Virus record (IMG/VR): IMGVR_UViG_3300031566_000185 | Coordinates: 1-35,966 of that record | Strand: one strand, 5' to 3' | Source: a virus | Length of the DNA: 35,966 bases | Shown here: piece after piece, positions 23,900 to 35,929 of the stretch | How the letters are laid out: each line of letters opens with the position of its first letter | How positions within the stretch are numbered: the stretch's first letter is position 1 | The notes under the pieces: model-generated | The model's database searches: none | The model's input: the letters and a program-made list of their open reading frames with translations, nothing else | What the model was told of the DNA's origin: nothing | Translations under genes and position numbers: made by a program

Positions 23900-24522
23900 G
23901 ATTGCCTCCTCATCATCATAAATTCTTGGTATTCGATACTGTTTTCCGTTATCAAAACCGGTTCAATTTTTCTTATCTTGCTCCTGACTCTTGCCGACCT
24001 CGCTTCGACTTCGGTCGCAGTGTACGCAGGCTTTGCCACCGGGCCAACATCGATAAGCTGCCGCGCTCCGCCGGAATTAAGTATGATTGTGTTGCTTTTT
24101 CTGTCGTATTCCTCGAAATCATAATCGACCAGCGCTTGAAAGGAGCAGCCCCGAACCTCCCCCCTGACAATTGGGCCGACGACAACATCACGAATCCTTT
24201 GAGAATCCGGAATCATTGCCTCGAATGGGAGCCCTCGGCTGTCCTGATCGATTTGCATCGTGCCCGCCGATCGTTCCCCGAGGATGTAATTTTCGTTGTG
24301 GTTCCAAAGCGCAAGAATTGGCTCATCGAGCGCGAGCGCCGGCCCGAAGAATCCTTGACGGATGACCTCCTTGACGCCGTTCAGGTTGTTGAACATCGCC
24401 CCGGTTTCGACATCGAAAAGCGCTGCGTATCCACGGATTACGTGCTCGTCATCGCCTTTTTTTTCAATTTTTAATTCGGATTCTGTGAACGGGGTAAACC
24501 GTTTCATTCCATCAATCATCTT
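23896..24522 (-). CDS. prohead protease (HK97/S78-like)
   Basis: About 208 aa from ATG 24522, or 210 aa from the GTG at 24528. The family core is clear: RGYAALFDV, then LWNHNEN with the catalytic His, SAGT, and VRGEVRGCSFQ with the catalytic Ser. It processes the capsid delta domain and itself. It overlaps both the portal end and the capsid start by ATGA or longer, typical of head-gene packing. Confidence 0.85.
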   Translation of the reverse strand, partial: KMIDGMKRFTPFTESELKIEKKGDDEHVIRGYAALFDVETGAMFNNLNGVKEVIRQGFFGPALALDEPILALWNHNENYILGERSAGTMQIDQDSRGLPFEAMIPDSQRIRDVVVGPIVRGEVRGCSFQALVDYDFEEYDRKSNTIILNSGGARQLIDVGPVAKPAYTATEVEARSARVRSKIRKIEPVLITENSIEYQEFMMMRRQS

Positions 24523-25825
24523 CACCACCGCCCTGGGGTTCTACCGGGTCGCTCCCGAGTTCTTTCATTTGCATTTGCATGTAAGTATCTTGGCCCACCC
24601 CGTTTTCGAGAGGATTTTTTTGGTTGTCTTCCCTGATCTCATCAGGCTTGATGGCCCCGGCCTGCCACATGACTTTCGTTTTTTCCGCCCATGCTTTGGC
24701 GTCCATTTTTTCCAAGGCCGTGAAATCATACGCCGTGTGATACCCGGCGTCCCGTTGCGCATCGTTGAACAAGTAAGAGTTGAAAGCCTGAACGTCATTG
24801 GTCGCCCACGGTAAGAGACAGTTTTTGATATAATGCTGCCAGAATTCCACGCTGTTCGTGAACGTCGACCCCCACGATTTTCCGGTCAGCATCACGGGAA
24901 CGCCCCAGAAACCGCATATGTTTTCGTATGCCTCGCGGTTTCTTTCTGCGAGCATGGCATAATCAAGCCGATATTCTGAATTTGTGATTTCGGCACCGCC
25001 AGGAACAACCCAAAGGCCGTGGCTGCTCTTCCACCCGGCAAACTCTTCTTTTGTTTTTTCGACTATATCAAGGCGCTTGATCGTGCCAGGGTCGTCGGTA
25101 AGTTTGGCGATGAACGCCGGGCTGTAGCCGTCTCCGAAAAAACCGTCTTGCCACTGGGCAAGCGATTTCGCAGCCCCGAGTTGCTGCCGCATCATTTGGT
25201 ATGCCGGAAGGCCGATGATACCGTTGAGTGTCACCTGCCCCGGTATGGACAGAACGCGTGATCTAGGCAGAACGTCCTGACGGTATTCCGGAAAAGTTTT
25301 CGTGATTCGGTATGCGGTGTCTCCGGCCTCAGAAACGTCGTCGTATTCATTAAGTTGAGAGAGATTTCGGAGTTGGAATGGTTCGACATTGGGCGTCAGT
25401 GAAGGCCAGAGCGCGGTTGCCTCCCCGAGTCGGTTCCAGTCAATCACATCGTAAGTCCCGCCGTATGTCGCTCGATTCCATACGCGTGAGAGTTGCCACT
25501 GATAGGCGGTCATTTCCCGGTTGGCCTGACCGTTGAGCACCCGGTTTGTCGGATAATCATCGGCGATATCACGCCCGCCACCCCGGCCCGATGGGCGGGT
25601 TTTCCATACATTGCATGGGATTGCTGCCATTGACCGGCCAATCACGCTGATGCAGTTCACATTTGCTGATACTGCCAAGGCGTCGAACGCGTTCATGGCG
25701 ACGCCGGCGCGGGTCATTGTCGATCCGCCTATGCCCGATGAGCCTATGGAGCGCCAGAAATCTGAGGGCTTGTCGATTGGGTAGGAATTGCGTTTGACCA
25801 GCTTTTTCCCGAATGTGCTCCTCAT
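24512..25825 (-). CDS. portal protein (HK97 family)
   Basis: 437 aa. Family landmarks: NCISVIGRSMAAIPCNV near the start, YPTNRVLNGQANREMTAYQW, LSIPGQVTLNGIIGLPAYQ, the NRE-Y-NICG-FWGVPVMLTGKSWG region and an acidic C-terminal tail. It forms the dodecameric DNA-entry ring. It is followed by the protease in the standard order. Confidence 0.9.
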   Translation of the reverse strand: MRSTFGKKLVKRNSYPIDKPSDFWRSIGSSGIGGSTMTRAGVAMNAFDALAVSANVNCISVIGRSMAAIPCNVWKTRPSGRGGGRDIADDYPTNRVLNGQANREMTAYQWQLSRVWNRATYGGTYDVIDWNRLGEATALWPSLTPNVEPFQLRNLSQLNEYDDVSEAGDTAYRITKTFPEYRQDVLPRSRVLSIPGQVTLNGIIGLPAYQMMRQQLGAAKSLAQWQDGFFGDGYSPAFIAKLTDDPGTIKRLDIVEKTKEEFAGWKSSHGLWVVPGGAEITNSEYRLDYAMLAERNREAYENICGFWGVPVMLTGKSWGSTFTNSVEFWQHYIKNCLLPWATNDVQAFNSYLFNDAQRDAGYHTAYDFTALEKMDAKAWAEKTKVMWQAGAIKPDEIREDNQKNPLENGVGQDTYMQMQMKELGSDPVEPQGGGEDD

Positions 25826-26181: not shown

Positions 26182-26229
26182 TGCAGTTGAAATTGTTCCC
26201 GAAAATTTATTTTCGAATTATTTCAACGA

Positions 26230-26290
26230 ATGCAAACAAAACGCTTGACATTGAAAAAACACTGTGATAGTGTATTAGACATTGAGCGGG
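26230..26290 (+). repeat. promoter-leader repeat, copy 1
   Basis: About 61 bp nearly identical to the reverse strand of 34306-34366. The shared block runs from ATGCAAACAAAACGCTTGACA through GTGATAGTGTATTA to CATTGAGCGG, with about six differences. It contains the promoter of each cassette. Confidence 0.85.
26245..26273 (+). promoter_or_regulatory. rightward promoter of the plus-strand accessory island
   Basis: TTGACA (26245-26250), a 17-base spacer, then TGA-TAGTGT, an extended-type -10. It directs transcription into the 95-aa gene and its island. A near-identical copy in inverse orientation lies at 34351-34323. Confidence 0.65.
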
Positions 26291-26301
26291 AGTTAACCAA
26301 A
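26273..26301 (+). repeat. 29-bp leader repeat, copy A
   Basis: A 29-base block (TATTAGACATTGAGC and on to TTAACCAAA) identical at 28 positions to 27844-27872. Both precede a start codon, by 18 bases for the 95-aa gene and 39 bases for the 68-aa gene. Confidence 0.85.
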
Positions 26302-26319
26302 ACACAAGGGGGAACGGGC

Positions 26320-26607
26320 ATGACAAGAATCAGCGACGAAATGAGAGAAGAAATCAGGCAAGAAATAGCCGAAAACATAAAACTATATTCTGAGGCTGGA
26401 GACACGAAAGGCGTGAGCCGATTCGAAAGACAACTGGTCGTCATCGGCAATATCGAAAAATACGACACCGACGAATTGCGAAAATATTTTCCGAGGATTG
26501 ATTATAATGACTACGAAGAATGGTCGATAATCATCAGGGGGATAGCTGGTGGATGGTATTTAGCGGGATGCGGTCGGAGAGACCTGCCCATCGAATTTAT
26601 CAACTAG
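26320..26607 (+). CDS. first gene of accessory island, hypothetical
   Basis: 95 aa from ATG 26320, downstream of the promoter; the longer frame from 26230 runs through the promoter. An acidic helical N-terminus (DEMREEIRQEIAENIKLYSE) and a compact end (GGWYLAGCGRRDLP). Isolated Cys only. The family is not recognised. Confidence 0.55.
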   Translation: MTRISDEMREEIRQEIAENIKLYSEAGDTKGVSRFERQLVVIGNIEKYDTDELRKYFPRIDYNDYEEWSIIIRGIAGGWYLAGCGRRDLPIEFIN

Positions 26608-26620
26608 GAAAGGAAAAGAC

Positions 26621-26755
26621 ATGATCGAAATAAACGGAAAGATGGTAACGGTAACAGATGAAGACATCAGAGAAGCGTCTATCAGAAACGAAACGATTCA
26701 AGAATACCTGGAAATGGAAGCGGCTTATCAGGCAATCATTGACGAACTGGATTGA
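26621..26755 (+). CDS. 44-aa acidic hypothetical protein
   Basis: MIEINGKMVTVTDEDIREAS... with AAAGGAAAAGAC directly before the ATG. The composition is acidic and helical, resembling small inhibitors or DNA mimics, which is only a guess. It ends two bases before the SLOG gene. Confidence 0.5.
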   Translation: MIEINGKMVTVTDEDIREASIRNETIQEYLEMEAAYQAIIDELD

Positions 26756-26757
26756 AA

Positions 26758-27114
26758 ATGGAAATAAAATATGGAATAGTCGGGAGCCGATCAAGAACAG
26801 ACAAGGAAGTTGTAACGGCCTTCGTTCGGTCGCTCCCGGCCGGATCAATCGTAATCTCCGGAGGATGCCACGGCGTTGACACATGGGCGGAAAAAGCCGC
26901 ACAAAGCGTCGGTATCGAAACAAGAATCTTTTTGCCGGATAAGGCCGGATGTGGCCACCGTTGGGAATTTACAAAGGCATTCCACGCCAGAAACCAACTG
27001 ATCGCCGAGGAATGCGACATCCTTGTGGCCTTCGTCTCCAAAGATCGAAAGGGTGGCACCGAGGACACAGTCAAGAGGGCCGATAAACTTGGGAGGGAAA
27101 TATGGATAAAATAG
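26758..27114 (+). CDS. SLOG-family (DUF2493/YspA-like) protein
   Basis: 118 aa. An N-terminal GIVGSRSRTD Rossmann loop, then GSIVISGGCHGVDTWAEKAAQ, and RN-x-x-IAEECDILVAFVSKDRKGGTEDTVKRA. This is the SLOG fold of DUF2493 and DprA-like proteins, which bind nucleotides, nucleotide derivatives or single-strand DNA; related SLOG domains occur as sensors or effectors in immune systems. In a phage it could be a ligand sponge, sensor or processing factor. It precedes the ring-nuclease homolog by six genes in the same operon. Confidence 0.8.
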   Translation: MEIKYGIVGSRSRTDKEVVTAFVRSLPAGSIVISGGCHGVDTWAEKAAQSVGIETRIFLPDKAGCGHRWEFTKAFHARNQLIAEECDILVAFVSKDRKGGTEDTVKRADKLGREIWIK

Positions 27115-27302
27115 ACATGTCAGGATTCGGCCTTGATTTCGATTTCCAGACCGTCGAAAACCCGTTTCAGGGCCATTTTGACGGAAAACAGCGCGAAGAG
27201 ACGAAAATCAGGTCGTTCCTGTCTGTTTCGTGCGCCGACTCTGGAATCGGGCGGGCCATGGCTTTGAAAAACTATTGGATATGGAGGGATGGGAATGGCT
27301 GA
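27102..27302 (+). CDS. 66-aa hypothetical protein
   Basis: It overlaps the SLOG end by 13 bases and starts with GGGAGG-type sequence upstream. The product MDKIDMSGFGLDFDFQT... has a Cys, Gly and Ser-rich middle. The family is unknown. The spacing supports co-translation. Confidence 0.45.
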   Translation: MDKIDMSGFGLDFDFQTVENPFQGHFDGKQREETKIRSFLSVSCADSGIGRAMALKNYWIWRDGNG

Positions 27303-27501
27303 AACCCTAGATAAAATACTATCAGATGAATGGAAAAGCGGCCCGTTTCGGGCTTGGCTGGTGGCCGCAAGGGGAATTTTCGGTGGCTTGGCTGTGTTGT
27401 CATCAGGATATAGAGCCGCGCAATTGTGGAGCCATGGCGTTGCACCACCTGACGCGATGTCTACGAGTGCGGAATGGGACGAAACGAGGTCGATGAAATG
27501 A
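27295..27501 (+). CDS. 68-aa hypothetical protein with hydrophobic centre
   Basis: ATG 27295 (AGGGATGGGA upstream) overlaps the preceding gene. The centre (RGIFGGLAVLSSGYRAAQLW) could be one short membrane span. Co-operonic with the SLOG gene. A large antisense ORF over this region is rejected because it spans several overlapping plus-strand genes. Confidence 0.45.
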   Translation: MAETLDKILSDEWKSGPFRAWLVAARGIFGGLAVLSSGYRAAQLWSHGVAPPDAMSTSAEWDETRSMK

Positions 27502-27581
27502 TCTCCGTAACCTCCCGTCAATACATGACAGTAGGTCAGGCAAATGAAATTAACGCAATAATAAACACAGTGAAAGGATAA
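27498..27581 (+). CDS. 27-aa hypothetical peptide
   Basis: The ATGA overlap with the previous stop and a stop four bases before the next ATG suggest a small coupled ORF (MISVTSRQYMTVGQANE...). There is no other evidence. Confidence 0.35.
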   Translation: MISVTSRQYMTVGQANEINAIINTVKG

Positions 27582-27585
27582 TAAA

Positions 27586-27828
27586 ATGACTGAAATCATG
27601 AAAATTGAAACAATCACAGACGCTGAAATATTTGTACAAAATTCTGGTGTCCATGATTGGGATTGGGGAGAATACGCAAGCTCTGATGGATTCGCCGTAT
27701 GGATTTTCGCGAATTGCTCGGAAATAGACCGGGACGAATACCAGGAAGAGCTCAACAGATACCTTGTCAGCGTTGACCGATGCCAGGGGGAAATTGACCT
27801 GACTTCACAATTCGGCAATAAACTGTGA
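27586..27828 (+). CDS. 80-aa acidic hypothetical protein
   Basis: MTEIMKIETITDAEIFVQNSG... then WDWGEYASSDGFAVWIF and an acidic helix. It is acidic with many aromatics. The family is not recognised; acidic aromatic-rich small proteins sometimes mimic DNA, but that is speculation. It ends just before the second copy of the 29-bp leader. Confidence 0.5.
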   Translation: MTEIMKIETITDAEIFVQNSGVHDWDWGEYASSDGFAVWIFANCSEIDRDEYQEELNRYLVSVDRCQGEIDLTSQFGNKL

Positions 27829-27843
27829 AAGGTCCTGAATATT

Positions 27844-27872
27844 TATTAGACATTGAGCTGGAGTTAACCAAA
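27844..27872 (+). repeat. 29-bp leader repeat, copy B
   Basis: The copy of 26273-26301, with one difference. Only the 5'-leader part is kept; the promoter boxes of the longer repeat are not present here. It lies 39 bases before the ATG at 27912. Confidence 0.85.
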
Positions 27873-27911
27873 GCAAAGGCCCGGTCCGCCTGGCAAGAAA
27901 GGAATACGAAC

Positions 27912-28118
27912 ATGAAGAAAATTCAATTTGACACGGTCAACGGCATCCAAGAAGTAGCAGACTTTGACGCAGACGCAATAATAATGTACCGCCTCAAAAT
28001 GTTCGACATCGAAGGCGTGGAAGACGGATTGTATGGTGCTGAAATTGACGAAGATTTATTTGAGCAATTGGAAACTGAATACGGAATATCGAAAATGCCG
28101 GAAGGCAAAACACTGTGA
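27912..28118 (+). CDS. 68-aa acidic hypothetical protein
   Basis: ATG 27912, with AAAGGA upstream. MKKIQFDTVNGIQEVADFD... then DIEGVEDGLYGAEIDEDLFEQLE, strongly acidic. Its leader copies that of the first island gene. The long extension to 27825 runs over the repeat and is unlikely. It is coupled to the next gene by GTGA. Confidence 0.5.
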   Translation: MKKIQFDTVNGIQEVADFDADAIIMYRLKMFDIEGVEDGLYGAEIDEDLFEQLETEYGISKMPEGKTL

Positions 28119-28327
28119 ACGAAAGATTATTCGAATTCGTATCAGGCTATTGTGTCGCATCGATTGGGGCGCTTTTGGGGTTCATATTTTTCTGGAAATC
28201 CGGGGTTTCCGGCGTAATCGTGCCATACGCCGTTGTGTTTTCAGTCATTTTCGGTGGAGCGCTTAGGCTCGGCTTTTTGAAAATCTGGGGTGAATTTAAA
28301 AGCACAATGAAAGGACAGCAATCATGA
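28115..28327 (+). CDS. small membrane protein
   Basis: 70 aa starting at GTG. Two hydrophobic stretches (CVASIGALLGFIFFW and VIVPYAVVFSVIFGGALRLGF) with a charged C-terminus. It directly precedes the DUF1874 gene (4-base overlap). It may be a holin or superinfection-exclusion protein. Confidence 0.5.
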   Translation: MNERLFEFVSGYCVASIGALLGFIFFWKSGVSGVIVPYAVVFSVIFGGALRLGFLKIWGEFKSTMKGQQS

Positions 28328-28692
28328 AAAGAATCTCACTGTTGAACACAAGTATAATGACCGTAAGAGACGCATGTTACAAGTATAAATCTGCAACCAT
28401 CGCCGATTGCCGCCAACTCATGGCGACCGCCATGGCAGAAGGAACGGAAATCATTTCGGCCATCGGTCACGAATCGACAGCGGAAATCATGACCGGGTTG
28501 CTGAATTACCCGGTCAAGGTCAACCGGATTCAATATCAACAGGCGGAGGAAGATATCGCCATCGTATTCAAGATGAATGGCCGGCCACTGGAGGGGAAAA
28601 TATTGACATCGGTAGAAACCGAAGAAATCGGGTACAGTTTTGGAATCATACGCCGTATTGATTTCGTTGAAAAAATGGGGGTGAAGATATGA
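28324..28692 (+). CDS. DUF1874 / AcrIII-1-like viral ring nuclease (anti-type III CRISPR)
   Basis: 122 aa. The sequence follows the DUF1874 (STIV B116) pattern: LLNTSI at the start, then SAIGHESTAEIM with the central His (H49, close to the catalytic His47 of the characterised viral enzyme), then VKVNRIQYQQ, KMNGRPLEGKILTSVE and FGIIRRIDF. AcrIII-1 enzymes of this family cleave cyclic tetra-adenylate and thus switch off type III CRISPR ancillary nucleases. It is expressed from the plus-strand accessory island next to a SLOG gene, as expected for a counter-defence cassette. The key residues that I can see are kept. Confidence 0.85.
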   Translation: MKRISLLNTSIMTVRDACYKYKSATIADCRQLMATAMAEGTEIISAIGHESTAEIMTGLLNYPVKVNRIQYQQAEEDIAIVFKMNGRPLEGKILTSVETEEIGYSFGIIRRIDFVEKMGVKI

Positions 28693-28862
28693 AATTCATC
28701 GAGCGGTTGTTTTGCGATCACGATTTTGAAAAAACCGGCTTCGAATTCCCGAACAGCCTTTCACAAGCATCTTTGGCCGGAAAGTCTGAATTTGAATGCG
28801 AGAAATGCGGGAAAGTAATAGGGAAAGACCGTTATGTCCCAAAAAATGGAGAAATAAAATGA
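28689..28862 (+). CDS. small zinc-finger protein
   Basis: 57 aa, coupled by ATGA. CDHD near the start and CEKCGKVIG at about residue 37 give a zinc site common in small phage zinc proteins. It is coupled at its 3' end to the next gene too. No function is assigned. Confidence 0.5.
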   Translation: MKFIERLFCDHDFEKTGFEFPNSLSQASLAGKSEFECEKCGKVIGKDRYVPKNGEIK

Positions 28863-29185
28863 GATGCGAATGCGGAAAAAAAATAGGCGGGCAGACATCG
28901 GACGGACACCATACGTTCGATGAACTTTACGATCACCGTCAAACACTTTTTTGCGCGCTTATGAGGGCGCACCCAGGAAAATCATGGAAATCAAGGCTGC
29001 ATGACGACGGCACGATGTTTGAAGGCGATTGGTTTATTGCCGGAATCGAAACGCCGATGGGTCCGGCGACATATCATCTCGAAGGGCGTTTCTGGGATTC
29101 CGCAAAAGTCCTACCATTGCCGAACGCTCCGGCATGGGACGGTCACACACCAGAAGACGTGCTCGAAAGGCTGGCGAGTTTATGA
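28859..29185 (+). CDS. conserved hypothetical phage protein
   Basis: 108 aa from ATG 28859 (overlap with the previous stop). An N-terminal MRCECGKKIGG, then HHTFDELYDHRQTLF, then the recognised closing pattern WDGHTPEDVLERL. Similar proteins sit in many phage early regions with no known function. The Cys pair could hold metal. Confidence 0.65.
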   Translation: MRCECGKKIGGQTSDGHHTFDELYDHRQTLFCALMRAHPGKSWKSRLHDDGTMFEGDWFIAGIETPMGPATYHLEGRFWDSAKVLPLPNAPAWDGHTPEDVLERLASL

Positions 29186-29538
29186 GATCGGCAAGATCGG
29201 CAAAACTAAAAAAAATGGCAAGCGGAGCAGGGTTTAACCTCGAAAAATGCACGCCGATAAATTACGATATTGGGAAATGGGTGATTTGGAACGCAAGCCC
29301 GAGCGGGCCGCTGTATTTCGACGTGCTCGCGGATGTCGAAGCATGGCTTGTTGGGAAAGGGGCCACGATCAAGGATGGGAGAGGGCCTGGGAAAAGGAAG
29401 CGTGGGAAGGCCAAAAAATATATTTGGTTCTATTCAGACATGCTGAATACGATCAACGAATACGCCGGTGTTGAGGGCCTGAACTTCTCGGAATCCGTTC
29501 GGAATCTTGTCGGGTTGGGGATTAAGGCTTGGAAATGA
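29182..29538 (+). CDS. ribbon-helix-helix-like DNA-binding candidate
   Basis: 118 aa from ATG 29182. The last 40 residues (KYIWFYSDMLNTINEYAGVEG...SESVRNLVGLGIKAW) look like a ribbon-helix-helix module; the N-terminal part is basic (GRGPGKRKRGKAKK). A DNA-binding regulator is plausible, perhaps for the repeated promoters. This is inference. Confidence 0.45.
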   Translation: MRSARSAKLKKMASGAGFNLEKCTPINYDIGKWVIWNASPSGPLYFDVLADVEAWLVGKGATIKDGRGPGKRKRGKAKKYIWFYSDMLNTINEYAGVEGLNFSESVRNLVGLGIKAWK

Positions 29539-30080
29539 CGAAAAAAGCGAACCCAAAAACAAAGGCACGCCTGAGCATCCTTGGCGAGATGCTTGCATTC
29601 CCTACAATCAGCCAAAAAGATTGGACTAGCGGCGGGGCAATTGTCGGAGATCTCGTATCGTTGCAGTCAGCGCCGCCGTCAAAGTGGTATGTGTCCTGGC
29701 TTATTGAGACAAGATGCGTGCATGATCGAGAATACTTGCTGGAGAGCATAGACGACGGGTCGCTATGCTGGTGGTCTAATGTGAGCCTGAACCATTACAA
29801 CCGTGAGCGCGTTGGCAATAACCCGACGTGGAGATGGGAGGACAGGCAATTCGATTTCTGGAAGCGTTGGCGAAAAGCTGCGTCAACGGACAGCTGGCTT
29901 TTGAGACCGTCGCTTCCAGAATTTTCAGGATTTAAGGTCACGCTTTCGGTTAGAAAAACTTTTGAATCTGGCGTTTTGTTCGGAAAAGAGTTCCTTGACT
30001 GGCGGAAGCTGAAGATTTCGGATATGATAGATTACTATAACGGATGCCTGAAAAATGAATTGATGAAAAAAGGCCTATAA
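29535..30080 (+). CDS. last gene of the plus-strand island, hypothetical
   Basis: 181 aa from ATG 29535. The middle is rich in Trp/Arg (WWSNVSLNHYNRERVGNN, WRWEDRQFDFWKRWRKA). No family is recognised. It ends tail-to-tail with TerL (6-base overlap), so convergent transcripts meet here without a visible terminator. Confidence 0.5.
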   Translation: MTKKANPKTKARLSILGEMLAFPTISQKDWTSGGAIVGDLVSLQSAPPSKWYVSWLIETRCVHDREYLLESIDDGSLCWWSNVSLNHYNRERVGNNPTWRWEDRQFDFWKRWRKAASTDSWLLRPSLPEFSGFKVTLSVRKTFESGVLFGKEFLDWRKLKISDMIDYYNGCLKNELMKKGL

Positions 30081-31826
30081 ATCAGGCTCGCGCAACCCAA
30101 AATAACAAAGCCAGCCCAAGAGAACGGCTACAGCCGGGTCGATCCTCTGGGCTGTCTTTTCTTTCACCGGCCTGATCTCGCCGTCAGAGCTGTTTTTCAT
30201 TGTCAAATTGTGGAACGCCCACGCAAGGAACGGGTTGCCGCCGTGGTTGATTTTCTCGTCGATGACTTGCTTCATGAAATGGTCACAGGCTTCGTTATAT
30301 GTTCCGAACCGGCCAGTGAGTGGCGTCAACTGCGGCTTGTATCCGTGATATGTCAAATCGGTGACGACGCGCTTGGCAAGATTTGGGTCATATCCGATGG
30401 CCGCGATGTTGAACCGTATTTTCCCGGCTGCGTTCTTCATTGCTCCGATGGCCACGATGTCATCAATGAGCGCCTTGTCATCAGATACGCGACCTGGGAC
30501 AATCGTCAAGTGCCCGGCATCCGCCCATTCTAGATACCGGGCCGCGTCCCTTCTGACAGGAATTTTGTTGCCGTCTTCGTCAAGAGACTCCATAAGATCG
30601 GCATGTATCGCGACACGCTCCGATGGCAGGTATGATTTGACAAGGATTTTCACTTTCTCGCCCGGGTCTTTCGGATGGAATATGAAAGCGGCGGATGTCG
30701 TGTCCTCCACTGCGGCGATGTCAATCCCCACACTGACATCGTACCCGTCCATTTCGTCAAGATTGATGGGCTTGTCGATGTCGCCGCATACGGCCCACAG
30801 GTGCTGAGGCATCCATTGAAAAATTGCTGAAATGTCACAATTGCAACCAAACCGGAGGAAGTTGGGCCACGCCGTTGGCATCTTGGACTTGAAAGCGACT
30901 TCGGCCTCTTCCATGATAACGGATAGCGGAAAAACCTCATCGTGACCGGGGTTGAAACTTGCGACAACCTCCGCGGACGGGAAGATTTTTGCACGCAGGC
31001 TTTTTTCCTGTTCGGGACCTGGGCCGTAAAAAATAGCCAGAAAGCGCTTGTTCGTTGGGTTTGCGATTTCCTCAATGGTTGCAGCGCGCCTAGCCTGATA
31101 TAGAGAGCCCTCTTGAAAGACGTTTCCAGTCGTGGCAGTGACAATCATCTGGTGTCTTCGCGCGCGTCCTGTCCCGGCTGTGTACGTGCTCCACAGGTCC
31201 CACCCTTTTTGCCCCTTCCATTCTGATATTTCATCCATAAGTACGGCGCTCCAGCTTCCGCCCTGCTGGCCTTGTGCAATCCCGGTTCTCTTATGGATGC
31301 TGGCAAGATGCCGCCCGTCTTTTCGATATTCAATGCGATTCGGGTTCGCATAAAACGGAGTGAATCTCTCTTTTAACCCTGGGTGATTTTCGACAGAATA
31401 GAGCAGCGGCCTGTAAATATTATTGGCCTGCTCCGATGAATTCGCGACAATGGCGATTTCGGCGCCTGGCTCATCGTCCCATCCTGCGAAATATAGCGCG
31501 AGCCTATGCATCCACGGAGATTTGGCGTTTTTTTTCGGGATGATGATTGAAACGTCGCGGATTGTCCGGAGCCCGTCAGGGTCGCGTAGGCCGAACATGC
31601 GCCACTCTACATCCCACTGCCACGACGGGAGCGTGTACGGTTGCCCGTCCTTGACTCCGGCCTTGATGATGCAAGTGTCCTGTGCCGTGCGGATGGCCTT
31701 GATGGCAGCGTACGGGTCGTCAATCTTAGGTAGATTGTTGATATCGATTTTCGGTGGTATCCACAGGTCTTCGATGGGCGCGCCCGGCCTGCGGAATTCT
31801 CTAATTAGTGCTTTTGAGAGCTTCAT
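30075..31826 (-). CDS. terL: terminase large subunit
   Basis: 583 aa. Walker A-like PKKNAKS (97-103), Walker B VLMDE (about 195-199), and the nuclease strand VSVGIDIAAVED with Asp near 369 are in order, matching HK97-type large terminases. It hydrolyses ATP to package DNA and cuts concatemers. It is separated from TerS by eight accessory genes and followed in reverse strand by the portal side. The convergent end with the accessory island is unusual. Confidence 0.9.
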   Translation of the reverse strand: MKLSKALIREFRRPGAPIEDLWIPPKIDINNLPKIDDPYAAIKAIRTAQDTCIIKAGVKDGQPYTLPSWQWDVEWRMFGLRDPDGLRTIRDVSIIIPKKNAKSPWMHRLALYFAGWDDEPGAEIAIVANSSEQANNIYRPLLYSVENHPGLKERFTPFYANPNRIEYRKDGRHLASIHKRTGIAQGQQGGSWSAVLMDEISEWKGQKGWDLWSTYTAGTGRARRHQMIVTATTGNVFQEGSLYQARRAATIEEIANPTNKRFLAIFYGPGPEQEKSLRAKIFPSAEVVASFNPGHDEVFPLSVIMEEAEVAFKSKMPTAWPNFLRFGCNCDISAIFQWMPQHLWAVCGDIDKPINLDEMDGYDVSVGIDIAAVEDTTSAAFIFHPKDPGEKVKILVKSYLPSERVAIHADLMESLDEDGNKIPVRRDAARYLEWADAGHLTIVPGRVSDDKALIDDIVAIGAMKNAAGKIRFNIAAIGYDPNLAKRVVTDLTYHGYKPQLTPLTGRFGTYNEACDHFMKQVIDEKINHGGNPFLAWAFHNLTMKNSSDGEIRPVKEKTAQRIDPAVAVLLGWLCYFGLREPDL

Positions 31827-34031: not shown

Positions 34032-34280
34032 TTATTTCGAGTTCCAGCCATTCTTCATGGCAAGGATTGTCCAGCGGTTTTCGTGCAAGTCGGATATTTT
34101 CACATAACCCTCAAATACTGTCTCTTGATTTTGAGACACGAAAATACGCACATCTCCGTCGTCTATATCATCTTCGTCAGCACTGGCTATCGCAAAAAAT
34201 TCTCCGTCAAGAAATGTTTCAATTTTAATCGATGATGCTTTCTCAGAAAGTTTTTTTTCTATTTCTTCGAATAATTTCAT
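34032..34280 (-). CDS. 82-aa acidic hypothetical protein, first of the second cassette
   Basis: It sits 26 bases downstream of the inverted promoter-leader repeat. Mostly beta and acidic (ASADEDDIDDGDVRIFVSQ). The gene is the first read from that promoter, paralleling the 95-aa gene of the other cassette. No family is recognised. Confidence 0.55.
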   Translation of the reverse strand: MKLFEEIEKKLSEKASSIKIETFLDGEFFAIASADEDDIDDGDVRIFVSQNQETVFEGYVKISDLHENRWTILAMKNGWNSK

Positions 34281-34305: not shown

Positions 34306-34366
34306 TCCGCTCAATGAATAATACACTATCACACTGTTTTTCCAGTGTCAAGCGTTTTGTTTGCAT
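34306..34366 (-). repeat. promoter-leader repeat, copy 2 (inverted)
   Basis: The reverse-strand copy of 26230-26290, differing at about six positions. The match continues from upstream of the -35 past the leader GTATTA-CATTGAGCGG. Confidence 0.85.
34323..34351 (-). promoter_or_regulatory. promoter of the second accessory cassette
   Basis: TTGACA at 34351-34346, a 17-base spacer and TAGTGT (TGA just upstream) at 34328-34323. It lies just downstream of TerS and drives the genes between TerS and TerL. Confidence 0.65.
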
Positions 34367-34371
34367 TAATT

Positions 34372-34833
34372 TCAATCGTTGAAACAATTGAACGCCGGCG
34401 CTACATACGGTTGAATGTCCAATTTTTTCCTTGCCGCAGGGTTCAGCCCGAAAGCGGTGGAATACGCCAGATACGCGGATCTGGCCGCGACCAGCATTGA
34501 GCATACCGGGTTTTTGCGCCCTTCGATTAGCTGCCCCTCTTCTTTGATGCACTTTTCAGACCGAAGCCAGTCAGACCACGCCATGCATAGGCCTTCCAAT
34601 GTCCCGATGTCCTGTGACGTGAGTCTTGCCTCGGATATAAGAACCTCGCCAGCCCTGAACCATTCGGCGGTTGCGGCCTCGTCCTCATCGAACCGGTCCG
34701 GGGGATTTGGTAGCTCTGACAAGGGCTTGCCTGCCGGGCCTGACGGTTTTGGCTTTGTGGCTGAGGTCGCCACGCCTTTGGTTTGATATTGGTTGGAACC
34801 TCCGCCTTGTCTTCTTTTGCCTTTTCCTTTCAC
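34372..34833 (-). CDS. terS: terminase small subunit (P27-like)
   Basis: 153 aa from GTG 34833 with AAAGGA six bases upstream, overlapping the previous stop. An N-terminal basic Gly/Pro-rich segment is followed by helices LTSQDIGTLEGLCMAWSDWL and a final FGLNPAARKKLDI, the P27-type signature. It recognises pac/cos and hands DNA to TerL. The longer ORF from 34878 ignores the ribosome site. Confidence 0.75.
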   Translation of the reverse strand: MKGKGKRRQGGGSNQYQTKGVATSATKPKPSGPAGKPLSELPNPPDRFDEDEAATAEWFRAGEVLISEARLTSQDIGTLEGLCMAWSDWLRSEKCIKEEGQLIEGRKNPVCSMLVAARSAYLAYSTAFGLNPAARKKLDIQPYVAPAFNCFND

Positions 34834-35492: not shown

Positions 35493-35786
35493 TTAATTCC
35501 TCCCTTTAAATCCAAAAGTTCCATGTCTTGACGCTCGATGAGCCTTTCGAGTTCTTCGACATGCCAACCCTTGATAATAGCGGCTTCGCGGTCCGTTGCG
35601 AACGCCTGATATACTTGGATCTACGCCAACCCGCGCCAACCCTTGATAATAGCGGCTTCGCAAATCATATGCGAAGCATTGATACTGTAGGGCTTGCGGC
35701 GATCTCTGTAAACCCTTTGTTACCAAGGGCTCGCGGTGATCCATGCGAAGCCTTGATACTGTAGGGCTTGCTCTAAAAAAAATCAT
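35493..35786 (-). CDS. doubtful ORF translated across the repeat array
   Basis: 97 aa with a GGAAAGAG site upstream of ATG 35786. The protein repeats RSRYYQGLA twice because the DNA repeats are 69 bases apart, a multiple of three. Composition (Arg, Ser, Gln-rich) does not look like a normal protein. I regard it as a by-product of the array. Confidence 0.2.
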   Translation of the reverse strand: MIFFRASPTVSRLRMDHREPLVTKGLQRSPQALQYQCFAYDLRSRYYQGLARVGVDPSISGVRNGPRSRYYQGLACRRTRKAHRASRHGTFGFKGRN

Positions 35787-35929
35787 AATTTTGCTCTTTC
35801 CATAAAAACGAGATGTCACGCGAGCCCATTGTTATCAAGGGTTTGCGTCTCGATCTCCGTAAGCCCTACAGCATCAACGGTTTACAGCAATTTTCGACCT
35901 CTGTGAATCCTTGGTAACCGGCCCTTTGA
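35564..35929. repeat. array of degenerate palindromic repeats at the right end
   Basis: At least eight units of about 27 bp with near-36-bp spacing. Two units (35564-35590; 35635-35662) share CCAACCCTTGATAATAGCGG; two others (about 35671-35694; 35744-35768) share TTGATACTGTAGGGCTTGC. The rest, at about 35707, 35819, 35859 and 35902, are weaker or inverted. Each unit is itself an imperfect dyad (AAGCC or CCCTT arms facing AGGGCTT or AAGGG). Confidence 0.7.

Follow-up and report, generated by a model that had tools for sequence, protein, structure and literature searches.

A virus-encoded DUF1874 protein of the AcrIII-1 ring nuclease family in a tailed-phage genome

The open reading frame at the centre of this study encodes a member of the AcrIII-1 (DUF1874) family. 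We analysed it within a window of 35,966 bases, the whole of an IMG/VR record that is given as linear and belongs to a tailed phage with an HK97-like capsid, a portal protein and a terminase large subunit (TerL). AcrIII-1 enzymes destroy cyclic tetra-adenylate (cA4), the alarm molecule of type III CRISPR defence. Judged by its homology, the 122-aa protein would have the same cA4 ring nuclease activity, and we consider it quite probable that it acts as a homodimer that cleaves cA4 and thereby switches off type III CRISPR effectors. The gene would be expressed from a plus-strand accessory island during infection, and the protein, most likely as a homodimer, would enclose cA4 and cleave it to yield two linear di-adenylates; His49 would act as the general acid, and Arg87 and Glu90 would lie within the active site. 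The resulting fall of cA4 in the infected cell would leave cA4-activated type III effectors such as Csx1 off and protect the phage.

The family assignment is supported by profile and sequence searches. The reading frame is intact from ATG to TGA, and its product matches a single Pfam family at E ≤ 0.1, PF08960 (STIV_B116-like, i.e., DUF1874), with an E value of 6.6e-23 and a score of 81.2 bits, where the curated cut-off is 26, far beyond chance. It also matches PHROG 5063 (E 7e-19), and a phmmer search of PDB sequences recovered AFV3-109 (2j6b), STIV B116 (2j85), SIRV1 ORF114 (2x4i), 6scf and the Csx1-Crn2 fusion. The landmarks named in the original prediction are all in place, namely LLN (residues 6–8), SAIGHESTAE (45–54) and GRPLEGKIL (86–94), and its proposal of a DUF1874 protein is borne out by the profile search and by the predicted fold described below. 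The gene is virus-encoded and lies outside any CRISPR locus, in a record that carries portal, TerL and capsid genes (Table 1). The family is already known, and the phage protein is a new, ordinary member of it.

Table 1. Features of the ring nuclease region and related repeats, with positions in the window.
Feature	Position	Strand	Remark
Portal protein gene, left island boundary	24512..25825	-	PF04860, E 3.7e-46
Promoter-like block at island head (TTGACA - 17 - TAGTGT)	26220..26304	+	Repeat copies elsewhere in record
Island between portal and TerL genes	26320..30080	+
SLOG/DprA-like protein, 118 aa	26758..27114	+	PF02481, E 1.5e-10, passes cut-off
Second promoter-side repeat copy, without TTGACA box	27844..27875	+	94% identical to 26273-26304
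Six-gene run	28115..30080	+	4-bp overlap at each junction
DUF1874 (PF08960) viral ring nuclease gene, AcrIII-1 family	28324..28692	+	122 aa
Zinc-ribbon-like CxxC protein, 57 aa (LFCDH...CEKCGK)	28689..28862	+	Weak PHROG matches, E 1e-4 to 9e-4
WDGH-domain protein (PF25311), 108 aa	28859..29185	+	E 1e-38
Terminase large subunit gene, right island boundary	30075..31826	-	PHROG 9, E 4e-78; PF20441, E 1.8e-21
Promoter-like block copy heading right-hand minus-strand genes	34307..34376	-	61/70 identical, as reverse complement, to 26220-26289

The residues expected of a catalytic ring nuclease are conserved. Across 26 aligned relatives, N8, G48, H49, T52, R68, R87, E90 and G91 do not vary, and G48, H49, R68, R87, E90 and G91 are also invariant in a separate set of 11 relatives. 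R87 and E90 align with R85 and E88 of the SIRV protein, which we take, also in view of their conservation, to be active-site residues. His49 is the predicted catalytic residue; it aligns with His47 of SIRV gp29 (position counted along the SIRV3 homologue) and with His495 of Csx1-Crn2. The H47A variant of SIRV1 gp29 is catalytically inactive and still binds cA4 at about 25 nM (PMC7213978), and Csx1-Crn2 H495A shows no cA4 degradation (PMC7293037). The AlphaFold monomer model of the ring nuclease (pLDDT 91.9) takes the DUF1874 fold, as a Foldseek comparison with 6scf indicates (E 3e-8, TM 0.69/0.73), and all 17 PDB matches at E ≤ 1e-3 are DUF1874 structures, including 6scf and the cA4-bound 8y7g. 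In the BFVD, STIV B116 and the protein of phage THSA-485A are among the Foldseek matches of the model. The same database returned fold matches at 5–11% identity and E about 1e-3 to J7KCD4 of Erwinia phage phiEaH2 and to A0A1B2IEC3 and A0A1B2IEJ3 of vB_EamM_Kwan, which may possibly be distant DUF1874 relatives.

The protein can be compared with several known systems. It has the DUF1874 fold and the His/Arg/Glu positions of the archaeal rudivirus AcrIII-1 (SIRV1 gp29 and the SIRV family; 6SCF, 2X4I) and is likewise virus-encoded, small and single-domain, whereas identity is about 18–24%, the virus here is a bacterial-type tailed phage, and the gene lies in a six-gene run with WDGH and CxxC proteins. 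A different tailed phage, Thermoanaerobacterium phage THSA-485A, also encodes a DUF1874 protein; this AcrIII-1 is matched in the BFVD (Foldseek E 4e-7), with 21% identity in the structural alignment, and in a heterologous plasmid assay cA4-mediated immunity was lost in its presence (PMC7371418). The domain and the catalytic His (H495 in Csx1-Crn2) are shared with Crn2 and the Csx1-Crn2 fusion (8Y7F, 8Y7G), but those proteins come from type III CRISPR loci or have the domain joined to Csx1, while the present gene stands alone in a phage that has no cas genes. AcrIII-2 functions as a viral ring nuclease for cA4 (PMC12751052), but it has a SAVED domain and no sequence kinship with the present protein.

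The relatives of the gene are spread over phages and mobile elements. Fusobacterium phages phiKSUM, phiBB and Fnu1 and Vibrio phage Rostov 7 are the nearest isolated phages, with 41–49% identity across about 89% of the protein (46–49% for phiKSUM and phiBB, 42% for Rostov 7), and their gene neighbourhoods differ from that described here. DUF1874 relatives were found at 19 IMG/VR loci and in 15 GTDB genomes, and a homologue is also carried by the Bacillus subtilis control genome; our searches found no relative nearer than about 51%. In the tree, the ring nuclease clusters with bacteriophage and mobile-element homologues (86/96), a group without firm internal branching order, and outside this group fall the archaeal-virus group and two homologues (L043 and L045) that share their contigs, of lengths 40,681 and 13,741, with Cas10 and are Crn2-like.

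The gene lies in a plus-strand island flanked by the portal and TerL genes, both on the minus strand, a location that the original prediction had given correctly. It is the second gene of a translationally coupled run, in the order 70-aa hydrophobic protein (probably a membrane protein), ring nuclease, CxxC protein, WDGH protein, 118-aa unknown protein and 181-aa unknown protein. The proposed operon with zinc proteins and a SLOG-domain protein stands in part: the CxxC gene belongs to the coupled run, whereas the SLOG/DprA-like gene shares only the island with it, being set off from the run by two gaps of 83–84 bp and the second repeat copy. The SLOG/DprA-like protein also has a YspA-type SLOG match (E 1.7e-4) that falls under the cut-off; we rejected it as a nucleotide-signal partner of the ring nuclease, the DprA/SLOG match having been the sole evidence for that role. 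A PADLOC scan of ten island proteins gave matches only for the ring nuclease and the SLOG/DprA-like protein. The view of the island as an inserted counter-defence cassette agrees with its position, but the counter-defence part comes down to one gene, and the PADLOC matches show no such role.

Repeated promoter-like blocks suggest that the ring nuclease may be regulated together with other phage genes. The copy at 27844-27875, which repeats the 3' part of the 70-bp block at the island head, precedes by 36 bp the sub-operon 27912-30080, which contains the ring nuclease, and the first ORF after the block on the right-hand side is 34032-34280. The argument is carried by the repeats because a simple promoter scan of the sequence found promoter-like sites to be no more frequent than in shuffles. 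From these repeats we infer that the plus-strand island, the ring-nuclease sub-operon and the right-hand minus-strand operon may share regulation. With its coupled run and with promoter-like repeats that recur at another operon of the phage, the gene should be useful for asking when phages make the enzyme.

The WDGH protein encoded in the coupled run belongs to a widespread phage family. PF25311-like sequence occurs in 156 phage records and at no fewer than 438 IMG/VR loci, usually as the C-terminal part of otherwise differing proteins; the 57-aa CxxC protein itself resembles the N-terminus of one such WDGH protein (L092; E 4e-4 in a search against 68 sequences). Invariant residues of the domain include H18, H26, H48, H73, D94 and H96. 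Its structure is predicted with confidence (pLDDT 92), and the model had no match in the PDB at E ≤ 0.001. A DUF1874-WDGH fusion is encoded in another tailed-phage contig (L014:1894-2538), on the strand opposite to the surrounding structural genes, as is the ring nuclease of the window. This is the only one of 12 other DUF1874 virus records with a WDGH domain (two of 13 with the present phage), and DUF1874 was found in none of the flanks of 79 newly fetched WDGH loci (L051–L129). The domain was rejected as a specific ring nuclease partner in view of its hundreds of viral loci, its many N-terminal parts and its rarity among DUF1874 records. The linkage between the ring nuclease and the WDGH protein may thus serve as a lead only. 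That the two proteins cooperate, with WDGH as a portable module, present on dozens of dissimilar phage accessory proteins, that would give counter-defence and other early proteins a common second activity or a targeting function, seems to us rather unlikely. No paper naming WDGH was found in the literature searched, and the fusion and the linkage would represent the first functional lead for a very common phage domain.

The distribution of Cas10 bears on whether the enzyme serves escape from type III CRISPR. An active ring nuclease could have another role, or the gene could be passenger DNA in its host. At native expression, AcrIII-1 has been reported inactive as an anti-CRISPR, a matter that is disputed (Martinez-Alvarez et al. 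2025, Nature 640 E8, with the authors' reply, E15, both as cited in PMC12751052). The diverged tailed-phage ring nuclease, with its catalytic residues intact, joins a family of disputed natural role. Cas10, called here and in the base rates from matches to its palm domain at E ≤ 1e-12, was detected in eight of the 15 GTDB genomes with a related DUF1874 gene. Two of the 15 genes sit on a Cas10 contig, are Crn2-like and were set apart from the other 13 carriers. Among these 13, which carry the gene outside CRISPR loci, six have Cas10 against 2.5 expected (p about 0.02), an expectation for which the rates of two minor phyla were assumed (0.15 and 0.02), in a set with many incomplete MAGs; the remaining seven, mostly MAGs, have no detectable Cas10. 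The base rates, with the centre genomes excluded, were 47/198 for Bacillota (G010), 12/149 for Pseudomonadota (G013) and 25/97 for Cyanobacteriota (G009). Cas10 is thus weakly enriched among carriers of related genes, which argues against a passenger or an unrelated role, as does the distribution of the family, which is found more often in phages than it is in CRISPR loci (36 phage genomes and seven prokaryotic genomes; PMC12409355). DUF1874 proteins are the commonest ring nucleases of phage genomes (36/28,114; PMC12409355). On the other side, in a separate Bacillota sample Cas10 was present in two of five DUF1874 carriers, one of them the centre genome, and in 24% overall, values that are not distinguishable. 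We judge a role other than type III escape, or none, to be unlikely. Because carriers are enriched for Cas10 over phylum base rates, a host with cA4-based type III CRISPR is plausible, but, contrary to the original prediction, the gene does not imply one.

Cleavage of cA4, rather than mere binding, is the reading we prefer for the protein itself. The DUF1874 fold could bind a cyclic nucleotide mainly as a sponge, or its target could be a different signal from cA4, such as that of another cyclic-nucleotide defence; the occurrence of the gene in genomes without detected Cas10 would fit, and signal-sequestering, non-cleaving phage proteins exist (PMC12043709). However, His49, Arg87 and Glu90 are kept, and a pure sponge would not need them, while the failure of AcrIII-1 to activate Panoptes is consistent with cA4 specificity (PMC12657218), and we regard a sponge or another signal as quite improbable. 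The protein could also be a CRISPR-associated ring nuclease, Crn2 or Csx16, picked up together with part of a CRISPR locus from a host. The PADLOC Csx16 model does match it at 2e-12, and a structural relationship links Csx16 to 2J6B, a viral DUF1874 protein (PMC12409355), but no Csx16 family in Pfam or NCBIfam matches at E ≤ 0.1, PF08960 being the sole Pfam match, and Csx16 was rejected as its family. Searches of the record for Cas10 and for CRISPR repeats found none, so that the gene is neither in nor beside a type III locus, and the Cas10-adjacent homologues lie outside its clade. Capture from a CRISPR locus is thus largely refuted, and we give it hardly any probability.

For the phage that carries this probable cA4 nuclease, searches of phage, IMG/VR and GTDB collections turned up nothing closely related to TerL, the portal protein, a 527-aa tail-region protein, RecT, the capsid protein or the tape measure protein, and we therefore claim no host. 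The best relative of TerL is at about 26% and that of RecT, from a Pseudanabaena phage, at 43%; the 527-aa protein had no match among 50,697 phage records. Close to the right end, positions 35556-35882 hold a cluster of direct and inverted repeats of 22–35 nt, possibly an origin or regulatory region. At the extreme left end (positions 1-83) lies an inverted repeat whose 19-bp arms match perfectly and enclose a 45-nt loop.
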